This document shows, piece by piece, positions 16,753-37,473 of a DNA stretch of 64,000 bases (its first letter is position 1; each line of letters starts with the position of its first letter). Source of the stretch: Methylomonas sp. LL1. Lineage in GTDB: Bacteria > Pseudomonadota > Gammaproteobacteria > Methylococcales > Methylomonadaceae. The stretch covers positions 4,216,001 to 4,280,000 of the forward strand of contig NZ_CP064653.1 in the NCBI RefSeq assembly GCF_015711015.1. Direction: 5' to 3'. The position numbers and the translations under genes are program-made. The notes below the pieces were generated by a model. It was not told the origin of the DNA. It saw nothing but the letters and a program-made list of their open reading frames with translations, and made no database searches.

Positions 16753-16786
16753 TTGTCATAAAACTGTCATATTCCCCCCCTACAAT
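16753..16786 (+). promoter_or_regulatory. PhoB box plus -10 of the porin gene
   Basis: TTGTCATAAAACTGTCAT at 16753-16770 matches the E. coli Pho box (two CTGTCAT repeats four bases apart) except for one base. Ten bases further on is TACAAT (16781-16786), a 5/6 match to the sigma70 -10. In PhoB-activated promoters the box replaces the -35 about 10-11 bp before the -10, exactly this layout. A transcript starting near 16793 would have a leader of about 120 nt before the porin ATG. Confidence 0.85.
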
Positions 16787-16911
16787 TCGCGCCAACTGCA
16801 TGGCTTTAGTCGTGATTCCCCCAAGAATTTAAGCGGTTACACCGGAATTTACGTTCGGTGTCCGAGCCATTTGTTTTTCGATTCAACTATAAAAATTTTG
16901 GAGATTGGATA

Positions 16912-18378
16912 ATGAAGTTAACGAAACTGAGTCTGGCGATGGCGTCGGTTCTGGGAGCGGGTTTTGCCGCCGATGCGATGGCGCTGGACTTGTATGTCGA
17001 CACCAAAACCCAGCAAATTTATGCCGAGCCGGGTCCCGGCCGGACTAAATTGGGTTCGTTTGAAAAAGTCGAGGATACCGCCGCCCAGAAAGCCGAGATT
17101 CAACAAATCAAGGAAGATTTGGCCTTGAAGGACAACGAATTGAAAGCGTTGGACGAGCATGTGAAGGTGGCCGAGGAAGTCAAGATCAAAATGGGTAATA
17201 AAGGGGTAGAGTTTGAATCGAAAGATAAGGATTTCAAATTCAGATTGGGTGGACGTATCCATGCCGATGCTTCATACACCAGTGGCGATGACGATCTTTT
17301 AAACAGAAGCAACAATACCCATGTCGAAGCCAACGACGGCACCGAAATCCGTCGCGCGCGGATGGAAATGATCGGTACGTTTTACAAGGATTGGGATTTC
17401 AAAAGCCAGTTTGATTTTGCCGACAACAGTGTCGCGGTCAAGGACTTGTTCATGCAGTATAGAGGCTTGAAAGACTTCGAATTCACGGCCGGACAACAAA
17501 AACAAGCCTTCAGCCGCGAGTTGCAAGAAAGCTCGAATGACATGATGTTCATGGAGCGTTCGTTGATGGATGCTCTGAACGCTCCGACTGTTGACCGAGC
17601 CATCGGTCTTAACGTCGGCAGCTTCCAAAAAGACTGGACCGGCCAGGTCGGTATCTATGGCGATACCGTAACGCCTAATGCCAACAGTGGCAACGCCGAC
17701 GAAGGTTGGGGTATCAGTACCCGCTGGACCTACGCGCCGATCAACGAAAAAACCAAGGTGATCCATTTGGGCGTGGCGGGTAACTACCGCGATCCAAACG
17801 CTAATGATCAAGTTACCGATCATGCATTGAGATTGCGCTCTGAGACTTCCCACATGTCTAACCTGAATCTGATTGACACGGGAAGCATCGCGGGCGTCAA
17901 TGCCGTTCAAATGGTGGGCTTGGAGGCCAATGCGCTGTATGGTCCGTTTACCGTTGGCGGCGAATACACTCAAATGTGGTTGGATCGGGAAAAGATCAAC
18001 GGCAGCAATTCCGACAATGTCGAGTTCAATGGTTGGTACACGGAAGCCTCCTGGACCATCACCGGCGAATCGCGTAAATACAAAAACGGCAAGTTTTATA
18101 AACTTGAGCCCAATAAAAATTTCAGCTTGAAAAACGGCACTTGGGGTGCTTGGGAGTTGGCGGGCCGTTATGCCGAAGCCGATTTGAACAGCGGCAATAT
18201 CCGCGGGGGACAAATGTCCAATTTGACCGTGGCATTGAACTGGTATTTGAACAGCAATTTCCGCTTCATGGCCGACTACAACAAGACCTTGGATTTAAGC
18301 GGTTCGCCGATCAAAACCACCAATGGTGGGGAGCCCAACGTGGATACCTTTATGTTGCGCGGCCAGTTGGCATTCTAA
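16912..18378 (+). CDS. Phosphate-selective porin, OprO/OprP family
   Basis: A 488-residue outer-membrane protein. ATG 16912 is chosen because it follows GGAG by 8 nt and begins a clean signal peptide (MKLTKLSLAM...DAMA, cleavage near residue 24); an in-frame upstream extension from 16858 lacks both. A short helical, probably coiled-coil segment (AQKAEIQQIKEDLALKDNEL) is followed by a long run of alternating amphipathic beta strands from FRLGGRIHADASY to the C-terminal LRGQLAF, ending in phenylalanine as outer-membrane barrels do. The family forms trimeric anion channels for phosphate or polyphosphate. The Pho box upstream supports phosphate-starvation induction. Confidence 0.9.
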   Translation: MKLTKLSLAMASVLGAGFAADAMALDLYVDTKTQQIYAEPGPGRTKLGSFEKVEDTAAQKAEIQQIKEDLALKDNELKALDEHVKVAEEVKIKMGNKGVEFESKDKDFKFRLGGRIHADASYTSGDDDLLNRSNNTHVEANDGTEIRRARMEMIGTFYKDWDFKSQFDFADNSVAVKDLFMQYRGLKDFEFTAGQQKQAFSRELQESSNDMMFMERSLMDALNAPTVDRAIGLNVGSFQKDWTGQVGIYGDTVTPNANSGNADEGWGISTRWTYAPINEKTKVIHLGVAGNYRDPNANDQVTDHALRLRSETSHMSNLNLIDTGSIAGVNAVQMVGLEANALYGPFTVGGEYTQMWLDREKINGSNSDNVEFNGWYTEASWTITGESRKYKNGKFYKLEPNKNFSLKNGTWGAWELAGRYAEADLNSGNIRGGQMSNLTVALNWYLNSNFRFMADYNKTLDLSGSPIKTTNGGEPNVDTFMLRGQLAF

Positions 18379-18402
18379 AATCCTGATTTTTCAATCAGAC
18401 TC

Positions 18403-18436
18403 AAGCCGCGCCGGGTACTCCGGCGCGGCTTTTTTT
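18403..18436 (+). terminator. Intrinsic terminator of the porin gene
   Basis: A perfect 12-bp stem, AAGCCGCGCCGG (18403-18414) with CCGGCGCGGCTT (18420-18431), a 5-nt loop and a run of Ts to 18436. It should stop most porin transcripts before the next gene. Confidence 0.93.
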
Positions 18437-18493
18437 ATGTTGATTTTTTGCGATAAGATACAGGCCCTTGGGCTTAGTGCTACGGAGATTATA

Positions 18494-20023
18494 TTGAAAA
18501 AAACCACTTTCTTGCTGTCGACTGTTTTATTGTCCGCGTGCGCCGGGAATACGCCGCTTGAAGCGGAATCGCCCCGTTGGCGGATGCAAGCGGATTGCCT
18601 GTATTTTTCCGGGCGTGACCAAGGCACCGAAATTATCAGTGTTCAGCAATCGAGCCTGCGGGCCGTTTTAAGTAATTTCAAAACCGGCGAGGCGGATATT
18701 CTTGATCTCAGTCGACCGGAAAAAATAACCCGTATCAACCGCTTTGATTTAGGCCTGCAAAAAAGCGAAGAATTTACCTCGGCCGCCTTTCATCCTAGTT
18801 TGAATGTGTTTGCCGGCGTGATTGATACAGGGTTGGAGCGGGGGCGCCTGGAAATCCGTTCGTCCGACGATGGCACATTACTGGACCGTGTCGAAGTCGG
18901 TTTCGGTCCGGACGCGGTAGTGATCTCCAAGGATGGCGGCGTAGTCTTAGTGGCCAACGAGGGTGAAGACTTTTCCTATGACAAACAGACTGGCGAATTC
19001 TTTTCCGCCGAAGGCAGTATTTCCATTATTCGCCTGGATAAAAGCGGCCGGATAAAAGCCAATGCCAATATCGAGCTGGCGGAAGTGATGCACCGTGAAG
19101 GTTTTGTCGTGGCCGAAAAAGGCCATTTTCTGGAGCGGGAAATCGACTGGGATGGCGATGGTAAAATCAGCAAAAAAACCGATTTCGACGCTAATGGCGT
19201 GATCGAAAACAAAAAAGTCAAAATCGGCCGTTTCGAAGGGGCTGATGTGTACGCCAATGAAAACAAAGGCGAAGCCAAAATCCTGATTCCTGTCGCCGCC
19301 GACTCCAAAACCCTGTTGGAACCCGAATATATCGCCTTGTCGCCCGACGGCAAGCGTGCCTATGTTACGTTGCAGGAAACCAACGAGGTGGCGGAAGTCG
19401 ATGTGGAAAATGGGCGAGTGTTGGGGTATTTCAACATGGGGATTGCCGAGCATGGCGCCGACCGCAAGGCTAACGGTTGGGTGGAATTTAACCAGTCGGT
19501 GATGGCCTTGCGCGAACCGGATGGCATTGCCCTGACCCCCGACGGGCACTATTTCGTTACCGCCGACGAGGGCGATACCGATACCGAAACGCTGGATGGC
19601 GATGAACCGTTACAAAGCGGCGGCCGGACCGTCAGCGTGTTCGACGCCAAAACCGGAGACTTCGTGGCCGACACCGGCAATCAATTGGATGAAATCACCT
19701 TTGCCCACGGTGTTTATCCGGATCGGCGCAGCAATAAAAAAGGCGCGGAGCCGGAGGGCGTGGTGTCGTTTGAAATGGAAGGTCAAGCTTGGGCCGTGGC
19801 GGGCATGGAACGCGCCGATGCCCTGGTGTTGATTTCATTGGCTAATCCCAAGCAACCCAAGGTCGTGGCGTTGGGTAAGATTCCGGGCGAGGAAAGCCGT
19901 TCGCCGGAAGGCATCGCGCATTTCGAGCGCAACGGCGAGCATTATGTGCTGTCGGCCAACGAAATGAACGGCACCGTGGCCTGTTTTAAAATCATGCAAG
20001 GTGAGCTTAAGTTGGAGCATTGA
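18494..20023 (+). CDS. Beta-propeller lipoprotein, choice-of-anchor-I-like, with calcium-loop motifs
   Basis: TTG at 18494 is preferred: GGAG lies 7 nt upstream and it opens a lipoprotein signal (MKKTTFLLSTVLLSAC, lipidated Cys16). The frame is open upstream but without a signal. The 509-residue product has repeated propeller blades (LSPDGKRAYVTLQETNEVAEV, LTPDGHYFVTADEGD, SPEGIAHFERNGEHYVLSANE) resembling choice-of-anchor I or YVTN-type proteins. Residues 218-238 carry two tandem EF-hand-like loops (DWDGDGKIS and DFDANGVIE), suggesting calcium binding. The site of action is periplasmic or outer membrane. It follows the PhoB-box porin beyond a terminator, so shared phosphate control is possible but not shown. 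The 3' end overlaps the convergent flippase gene by 17 bp. Confidence 0.8.
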   Translation: MKKTTFLLSTVLLSACAGNTPLEAESPRWRMQADCLYFSGRDQGTEIISVQQSSLRAVLSNFKTGEADILDLSRPEKITRINRFDLGLQKSEEFTSAAFHPSLNVFAGVIDTGLERGRLEIRSSDDGTLLDRVEVGFGPDAVVISKDGGVVLVANEGEDFSYDKQTGEFFSAEGSISIIRLDKSGRIKANANIELAEVMHREGFVVAEKGHFLEREIDWDGDGKISKKTDFDANGVIENKKVKIGRFEGADVYANENKGEAKILIPVAADSKTLLEPEYIALSPDGKRAYVTLQETNEVAEVDVENGRVLGYFNMGIAEHGADRKANGWVEFNQSVMALREPDGIALTPDGHYFVTADEGDTDTETLDGDEPLQSGGRTVSVFDAKTGDFVADTGNQLDEITFAHGVYPDRRSNKKGAEPEGVVSFEMEGQAWAVAGMERADALVLISLANPKQPKVVALGKIPGEESRSPEGIAHFERNGEHYVLSANEMNGTVACFKIMQGELKLEH

Positions 20024-21380
20024 GCGCCAGATATTGGCGCATGTGGCGACTGGCCAGCCATTTGAGGCTGCAAAAAAGTAGCGTCGTGGGCGCCGCGTAA
20101 GCGATGGCTACTCCGGTTGCTCCGTAAAGGGCACCCAGGTTAAAGCTTAAAACCAGCATACTCAGTGCAAAAAAAGACATTAAGCTGACCACGGTGCGAT
20201 TGCGTCCCATGAATTGTAGATAGTACAGCGAATCCGAGAACAGGGTCATGAATGCGGTACCCACTGCGGTAATCAGCAAGACCCAGTAGCCTTGCGAAAA
20301 AGCAGGGCCAAACAAGTCGAGTATCTCTCGGCCCCAGATGCTGATCATAGTCAGGAAAACGGCTACAAAGCCGGTAATCAGTTGCAGGCGTTTGATTAAC
20401 AGCATCTTGATGGCTTGCCGGTCTTGACGCTCCAGCAACACCACCAGCATGGGCAAATAATAGCGATTGGTCGAGGTGCCGATCAGCGAAATCAATGCAG
20501 TCGTTTGCATAGCCACGGCATAAATCCCCACTACCGCTTGCGAGGGGTACAGTATTTCCAGGACGATGGTGCCGGCACTGCTCAGCACGGTCATCATCAG
20601 GCTACTGGCTAACAGCGGCAGCGACTTTTTTAGCCAAACCCGGCGCCGGTAAGTGTCGGTTTTGGCATGACGCAATTCGCTGGGGCTGGCCGCGTGGGCG
20701 GTAATCCACATCAATAGCAGCGTCAAGCACCAGGCTATCCCAAAGCAAAGTACCGCCGAAACCGCCGTGACGGCAATCCGCAAGTCATTTAATGAAATGA
20801 CCAGTAGTAAAAATAGCGCGGGTAAAAAGAAACGATACAAGGCCAGCGCCAGGATTTGCTGACCATAAACCGTAATGGCTTCAATTAAAAATAAACACAA
20901 GGCAATGACCGGCAGAAAGCCGGTGTAAACGGCAATGGCGATATGAAAATCGGCCTGTTGCCAAGCCAGAAAACTTTCCAGCCCCAGGCTTATGATGCCC
21001 ATTAATAGCAGGCTGAACAGCAAGATGGCGCGAATAGAGAAGCGCAAAAAACCTCGAAGTCGGGGCCAGTTTTCGCGTTCGATGCACAAGGCAATTCCGC
21101 GCAAGGCATACTTCTCAAGGCCCAGAGTCGCCAGGGTCGATAGCAAGGTCACAAGGGAAATCGCTACGCTGTAATCGTCAAATTCATCGATCGCCAAATG
21201 CCTGGCCAAGAAAATGTTTGCCCAATACATCAAGGCATAGTTGCCCAGACTCAAGCCAAACAGCATCAACGAGTTTAAATTATTGGGGTGGACGGAAAAA
21301 TTGGGATTCAATGTTTTATGCGCGGGGGGAGGGGAAGTCATCGCCTGGCGATTTAAGCCATTGTGAGTTAAACGGCCCAT
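20007..21380 (-). CDS. Polysaccharide flippase, Wzx/MOP-like
   Basis: A 457-residue inner-membrane protein with about twelve to fourteen hydrophobic helices and short loops, typical of the MOP exporter superfamily (oligosaccharide flippase). The N-terminal LMLFGLSLGNYALMYWANIFLARHL and later YAVAMQTTALISLIGTSTNRYYLP fit Wzx-type proteins. These move lipid-linked oligosaccharides across the membrane for surface polysaccharide assembly. No glycosyltransferase is adjacent, so the substrate is unknown. ATG 21380 is the longest start; ATG 21341 (MTSPPPAHK) is an alternative with no loss of membrane segments. It is convergent with, and overlaps, the lipoprotein gene. Confidence 0.78.
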   Translation of the reverse strand: MGRLTHNGLNRQAMTSPPPAHKTLNPNFSVHPNNLNSLMLFGLSLGNYALMYWANIFLARHLAIDEFDDYSVAISLVTLLSTLATLGLEKYALRGIALCIERENWPRLRGFLRFSIRAILLFSLLLMGIISLGLESFLAWQQADFHIAIAVYTGFLPVIALCLFLIEAITVYGQQILALALYRFFLPALFLLLVISLNDLRIAVTAVSAVLCFGIAWCLTLLLMWITAHAASPSELRHAKTDTYRRRVWLKKSLPLLASSLMMTVLSSAGTIVLEILYPSQAVVGIYAVAMQTTALISLIGTSTNRYYLPMLVVLLERQDRQAIKMLLIKRLQLITGFVAVFLTMISIWGREILDLFGPAFSQGYWVLLITAVGTAFMTLFSDSLYYLQFMGRNRTVVSLMSFFALSMLVLSFNLGALYGATGVAIAYAAPTTLLFCSLKWLASRHMRQYLALNAPT

Positions 21381-37442: not shown

Positions 37443-37473
37443 AATCCCTGTCATATTTGTGTCAGGGATTTTT
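37443..37473 (+). terminator. Terminator or attenuator between nusG and rplK
   Basis: AATCCCTG (37443-37450) and CAGGGATT (37463-37470) form an 8-bp stem with a 12-nt loop, ending in five Ts. It separates secE-nusG from the rplKAJL-rpoBC genes. Confidence 0.7.

Follow-up and report, generated by a model that had tools for sequence, protein, structure and literature searches.

In the genome of Methylomonas sp. LL1, a gene for an OprO/OprP-type porin and the gene that follows it, which encodes a propeller lipoprotein, make up a phosphate-scavenging locus conserved in Methylococcales. The pair lies in a stretch of 64,000 nt (contig NZ_CP064653.1, positions 4,216,001 to 4,280,000), hereafter the window, in which the coordinates of Table 1 are counted. 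The locus is well supported because a PhoB-type promoter precedes the porin gene, the pairing of the two genes is conserved and the family of the lipoprotein is linked to phosphatase genes; on this solid ground stands what an earlier, sequence-only reading of the window had considered possible. Judged by its sequence, the lipoprotein is a separate, long-branched clade of the PF22494 (choice-of-anchor I) family, and we think it reasonably probable that it is a membrane-anchored, metal-dependent phosphoesterase working together with the porin.

We compared 30 records, namely the window, four from other genomes and 25 genome-contig loci with the same lipoprotein gene; 24 of these 25 come from named Methylococcales (e.g., Methylomonas, Methylobacter, Crenothrix), and one (L069) is labelled just “bacterium”. 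The porin gene is located upstream in 26 out of 28 loci with visible upstream DNA, 24 of them with the porin start seen and two (L048 and L058) with the porin at the contig edge; L049 and L063, where the contig ends before the upstream gene, were left out of this count. In a search region that began 400 nt before the longest porin open reading frame (ORF) and extended 120 nt into it, the best Pho box scored 11–14 of the 14 specified bases in all 24 loci with the porin start in view, window included. Compared with 1000 single-base shuffles in 23 loci, the box was equalled by five shuffles or fewer in 21, by 35 in L038 and by 44 in L062. A -10-like hexamer, the chance rate of which was not computed, occurs 10–12 nt past a Pho box in 21 of the 24 loci (not in L055, L065 and L068). 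The gap between the porin and lipoprotein ORFs measures 46–189 bp in 18 out of 23 loci. Two of the porins (L060 and L062) are just 30–36% identical to that of the window, and another (L053) is split into two ORFs, the first piece having a Pho box of 13/14.

Among 81 genomes, nine carry an orthologue of the lipoprotein, and these are the same nine that carry a porin of more than 55% identity, in a porin search with E 1e-60 as its limit; one of the nine (G029) has the porin as a fragment at the edge of a contig, and another (G008) has it on a separate contig from the lipoprotein. A class-wide search at E 1e-40 found the lipoprotein in none of 368 genomes beyond its own, in a set drawn evenly that listed just three others of the order. 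A flippase-like gene is often found next to the pair; its strand and side vary between loci, and it is duplicated in L042.

The porin gene has the arrangement of a Pho regulon member, i.e., a Pho box with a -10 hexamer some 10 nt downstream, which supports its control by PhoB, as first read from the sequence. At up to three mismatches, Pho-box matches in the window are at chance level (five found versus 5.36 expected). At one mismatch or fewer, the whole 4.92-Mb genome holds four sites and the reversed-pattern control none; the three sites elsewhere precede genes for a PstS-like binding protein, phoU and a two-domain acyltransferase. The last of these is a perfect box (G000:C2:748768-748785; L118), and the acyltransferase behind it (PF19576 plus GNAT PF13444) might synthesise ornithine lipids and so take part in lipid remodelling when phosphate is scarce. 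A Pho-box-like site with two mismatches at 37448-37465 was set aside as probably due to chance, the lengths of the ORFs downstream fitting an rplK–rpoC operon (ribosomal protein and RNA polymerase genes). The porin resembles the OprO/OprP phosphate porins in its membership of PF07396 and in its Pho box; it differs in that some 110 residues, counting the signal peptide, stand before the Pfam match, and its selectivity is predicted.

The assignment of the gene downstream as a lipoprotein with propeller repeats is likewise upheld. The lipobox LLSAC places the Cys at residue 16; this Cys is invariant in a nine-sequence orthologue alignment and absent in L051. The match to PF22494 reaches 90.8 bits against a Pfam cut-off of 32, which makes the protein a member, and hhalign gives 100% probability against ten other members from the same order. 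In a tree of 18 sequences, the porin-linked clade (100/100) is set apart from a group of cyanophage PhoA proteins with two phytase-like fusion proteins (100/100) and from the canonical members (85/96, unstarred). Across these three groups, 35 columns are invariant. The window lipoprotein has a lipobox and an insertion with calcium-type loops, whereas its canonical choice-of-anchor I paralogue in the same genome (L046:5059-6672; G000:C2) has a PEP-CTERM-like end, scoring below cut-off. By eye, the genes around this paralogue read like type II secretion genes.

A better yardstick for the lipoprotein than PhoX or phytase is the PhoA-aty / choice-of-anchor I family, PhoA-aty being the atypical alkaline phosphatases of cyanobacteria, their phages and algae. 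The window lipoprotein matched nine phage records, all of cyanophages and all with the gene annotated alkaline phosphatase (residues 276-499, best 30%, E 3e-11). Two of the cyanophage PhoA proteins are themselves members of PF22494 (61 and 70 bits), their gene coming after pstS, and hhalign aligns the lipoprotein with phage PhoA over residues 30-492 (99.8%, E 1.8e-29). Common to both are the P-[D/E] pairs, acidic residues and an REPD motif, as is the phosphate context; the identity to viral PhoA amounts to 24–28%, and activity of the lipoprotein is predicted. Its proline–acid pairs are P139-D140, P277-E278, P342-D343, P420-E421 and P471-E472. Conserved D, E and proline–aspartic motifs, as described for PhoA-aty in PMC6723241, are thus present, by description of the motif and not by matched position.

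According to PMC4548154, the PhoA-aty class was defined by four D/E-rich motifs in 2015. It is described as first identified in freshwater Synechococcus and said to be without a defined hidden Markov model (PMC11098088), and, as stated in PMC6723241, no active-site or structural model is applicable to it. A dinoflagellate PhoA-aty from E. coli is reported to have its activity restored by Ca, Mg or Mn, not by Zn, Fe3+ or Co, and strong expression of PhoA-aty by picocyanobacteria in phosphate-poor seawater has been reported. All of the 10 matched plasmid records were named esterase-like activity of phytase; an “atypical alkaline phosphatase” of Nodularia has the same label and positive values in a phosphate-limitation table (PMC9846622). 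NF038117, the NCBIfam model of the family, matched in three of 14 control genomes: Synechococcus elongatus (a match at the level of the genome), Deinobacterium chartae and Methanosarcina acetivorans. The paralogue from the window's genome, used as query, matched no viral contig. Our literature searches for “choice-of-anchor I”, alone or with phosphate, found nothing, and those for “choice-of-anchor” with alkaline phosphatase returned items unrelated by title.

The structure model of the lipoprotein (predicted local distance difference test, pLDDT, 83.3; predicted template modelling score, pTM, 0.84) is a propeller, and aligns to WD40-type and seven-bladed propellers with Z of 34–37 among the 50 matches shown, one of them a seven-bladed designer protein that aligns over 285 of its 286 residues at 2.0 Å. 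Since any propeller scores well, such matches speak for the fold only. By sequence, the best match among solved structures is a YVTN surface-layer protein. Of the 35 invariant columns (window included; 28% mean column identity), 16 are acidic and four basic, an excess of acidic residues with P 4e-5. In six strands, the second position is taken by one of these acids (E46, D140, E278, D343, E421 and E472); in the remaining blade, T95 takes the matching place of the motif, which is occupied by Asn in canonical members. Four others (E156, E359, E439 and E490) are found one residue past a strand, and E295 two past. From the topology of the model, in which the strands concerned would be the inner ones, we infer that the acids line the centre of the propeller. 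The pattern fits the acidic and proline–aspartic motifs reported for PhoA-aty.

The two EF-hand-like loops that had been read from the sequence, DWDGDGKI (residues 218-225) and DFDANGVI (230-237), are present and largely retained in orthologues; the Pfam EF-hand profile stays below its cut-off of 25.9 bits, both for the lipoprotein (11.3) and for the orthologue of L055 (18.3). The loops are not part of the common residue set because the insertion that contains them is absent from the cyanophage PhoA relatives. That insertion, the separate, long-branched clade and the tight pairing with the porin would suit a lipoprotein without catalysis, acting in the manner of a surface binding lipoprotein: its ligand might be phosphate esters, calcium phosphate or the porin itself, and its task the delivery or gating of solutes. 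We hold such a non-catalytic partner to be unlikely, given that its acidic and basic residues are common to proteins annotated alkaline phosphatase and that two loci retain the lipoprotein without a porin.

A relation to PhoX or to phytase, which the sequence-only reading had put forward for the propeller, is not supported by sequence. Neither PhoX (PF05787) nor beta-propeller phytase (PF02333) gives a match at E up to 1, the phytase-like esterase profile PF13449 stays below cut-off (19.2 versus 27.6 bits), and hhalign against four PhoX proteins yields a probability of 2.5% (E 0.018, 86 columns). PhoX is not among the 50 folds shown by either structure search, in which generic propellers fill the list, so this is evidence neither way; the viral fold library has no named phosphatase among the 50 matches shown. 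With PhoX and Psip1, propeller phosphatases containing Ca and Fe, the lipoprotein would share the propeller, a proposed acidic metal centre and a role in phosphate starvation (PMC11098088); these enzymes are described there as six-bladed, and the lipoprotein lacks a PhoX sequence match. It also lacks a PF13449 part, which in three relatives of the same order (L010, L012 and L029) is fused behind a choice-of-anchor-I-like N-terminus; just L029 scores above the PF22494 cut-off.

In the wider family, 10 of 18 other loci from the taxonomic family of the window (paralogue of the same genome included) have a PhoA, PhoX or PhoD gene no more than 8 kb away, against some 1% that chance would give by our estimate. 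Canonical choice-of-anchor I genes in six genomes (G006, G023, G025, G028, G036 and G038) are at most 3 kb from classical PhoA genes; no classical PhoA occurs in the genome of the window. This association of the family with phosphatase genes, the pstS neighbours in two phages and the retention of the Pho-box porin across genera argue against another metal-dependent hydrolase, of lactonase or carboxylesterase type, placed behind a Pho-regulated porin. Other metal propellers bear central acidic residues as well, and the sub-threshold scores with the profiles of SGL and phytase-like esterase would be in keeping with such an enzyme, which we nevertheless find improbable.

The strong terminator that had been noticed between the two genes, and the doubt about co-expression that went with it, are confirmed. 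Its stem (18403-18431) consists of 13 base pairs, of which 10 are G-C, and is followed by a T run, and the terminator end GGCTTTTT is present in 20 out of 23 porin–lipoprotein intergenic stretches. In 11 of 23 other loci, a TA[T/A][G/A]AT hexamer occurs 17–19 nt past the T run, which suggests that the lipoprotein gene may have its own promoter. A scan for sigma-70-type promoters found three sites, all on the minus strand and fewer than in shuffles; because only minus-strand sites came out, the case for this promoter is one of conserved position. Whether through read-through or through a promoter of its own, induction of the gene is a prediction, and our literature searches found no published expression data on this locus. 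The conserved terminator with its -10-like hexamer and the lack of an own Pho box would also be expected of an independently transcribed, calcium-binding envelope protein unrelated to phosphate, adjoining the porin through inherited gene order. We consider this very improbable, as the pairing is kept while the flippase neighbour switches side and strand, and as the presence pattern equals that of the porin in 81 genomes.

Several observations weigh against a phosphoesterase that works with the porin. Two of the 28 loci (L056 and L069) have neither an upstream porin nor a Pho box; gatB is directly upstream of the lipoprotein gene in L069, and an LCCL-domain gene, then gatB, in L056. In five of 23 loci, the porin is 653–1047 bp away from the lipoprotein ORF. 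The lipoprotein gene sits downstream of a conserved terminator and has no Pho box, the best score being 8–10 of 14 in the intergenic stretches and 9 in L056 and L069. Eight more loci of the family, from the wider order, have no phosphatase gene at a distance of 8 kb or less (overall, 10 of 26 do), and a Pho box of at least 12/14, on either strand, is found upstream of just six out of 21 choice-of-anchor I genes, the other 15 having none. The paralogue in the window's genome is among the six, with a Pho-box-like site of 12/14 equalled by three of 500 shuffles. That genome also holds one PhoD gene and two genes that weakly resemble PhoX, so that another enzyme could do the work. The lipoprotein scores 191 with NF038117, below the cut-off of 300, as do two cyanophage PhoA proteins (147 and 150 bits). 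Canonical relatives lack R340-E341, which the lipoprotein has in common with phage PhoA. The direct comparison with PhoA-aty covered cyanophage PhoA only, and the phage phoA is termed putative and described as occurring only with pstS (PMC10976474). Finally, a propeller lined with acids may hold calcium and catalyse nothing.

The case for an enzyme is carried by the direct sequence link to cyanophage PhoA together with the pairing with the porin. Homology and conserved residues give partial support to the unrecognised phosphate-releasing enzyme that was thought conceivable at the outset, and we regard it as a good hypothesis attached to named residues. Upon phosphate shortage, phosphorylated PhoB would bind the Pho box and turn on the anion porin, as the anatomy of the promoter suggests. 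The lipoprotein, probably anchored in the outer membrane, would form a seven-bladed propeller in which the six strand-entry and five after-strand acids hold Ca2+ or a similar metal, and the invariant R378, R412, K416 and R440 are candidates for gripping phosphate. It would hydrolyse organic phosphate esters, either at the surface, the porin then taking up the phosphate, or in the periplasm, after import of the esters through the porin; the phosphate released would pass on to PstS.

Table 1. Features of the porin–lipoprotein locus and its surroundings in the window
Feature	Coordinates	Strand	Remarks
Pho box TTGTCATAAAACTGTCAT	16753..16770	+	1 mismatch, 13/14 specified bases; PhoB-type promoter
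-10 hexamer TACAAT	16781..16786	+	10 nt past the Pho box
OprO/OprP-type porin gene	16912..18378	+	PF07396 Porin_O_P, 226.3 bits versus cut-off 20.9
Intrinsic terminator, stem and T run	18403..18436	+	Between the porin and lipoprotein genes; similar in related loci
-10-like TAAGAT	18454..18459	+	17 nt past the T run; the lipoprotein gene may have its own promoter here
Ribosome-binding site GGAG	18484..18487	+	Predicted from sequence
Propeller lipoprotein gene, choice-of-anchor I family	18494..20023	+	Best start TTG 18494
Signal peptide and lipobox, Cys 16	18494..18541	+	Predicted from sequence
Codons of invariant acidic residues	18629..19963	+	18-sequence alignment; placed on model strands
Two DxDx[D/N]G calcium-type loops	19145..19204	+	Sequence and alignments
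Flippase-like gene, frequent neighbour	20007..21380	-	PF01943, 27.4 bits, just under cut-off 28.2

The proposed link of PhoA-aty to a functionally unnamed public family, and the placing of invariant acids on a seven-bladed model, provide residues to test. We suggest, tentatively and with somewhat less conviction than the enzymatic role itself, that the family could be a further structural solution among propeller phosphatases, seven-bladed and with a ring of blade-entry acids for calcium-type metals, unlike the six-bladed PhoX/Psip1 and phytase; PF22494 could then be the missing model for PhoA-aty, and the Methylococcales clade an unrecognised, porin-coupled and lipid-anchored alkaline phosphatase. 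If true, methanotrophs would have a hitherto overlooked way of using organic phosphorus, with porin and enzyme probably paired in one locus.

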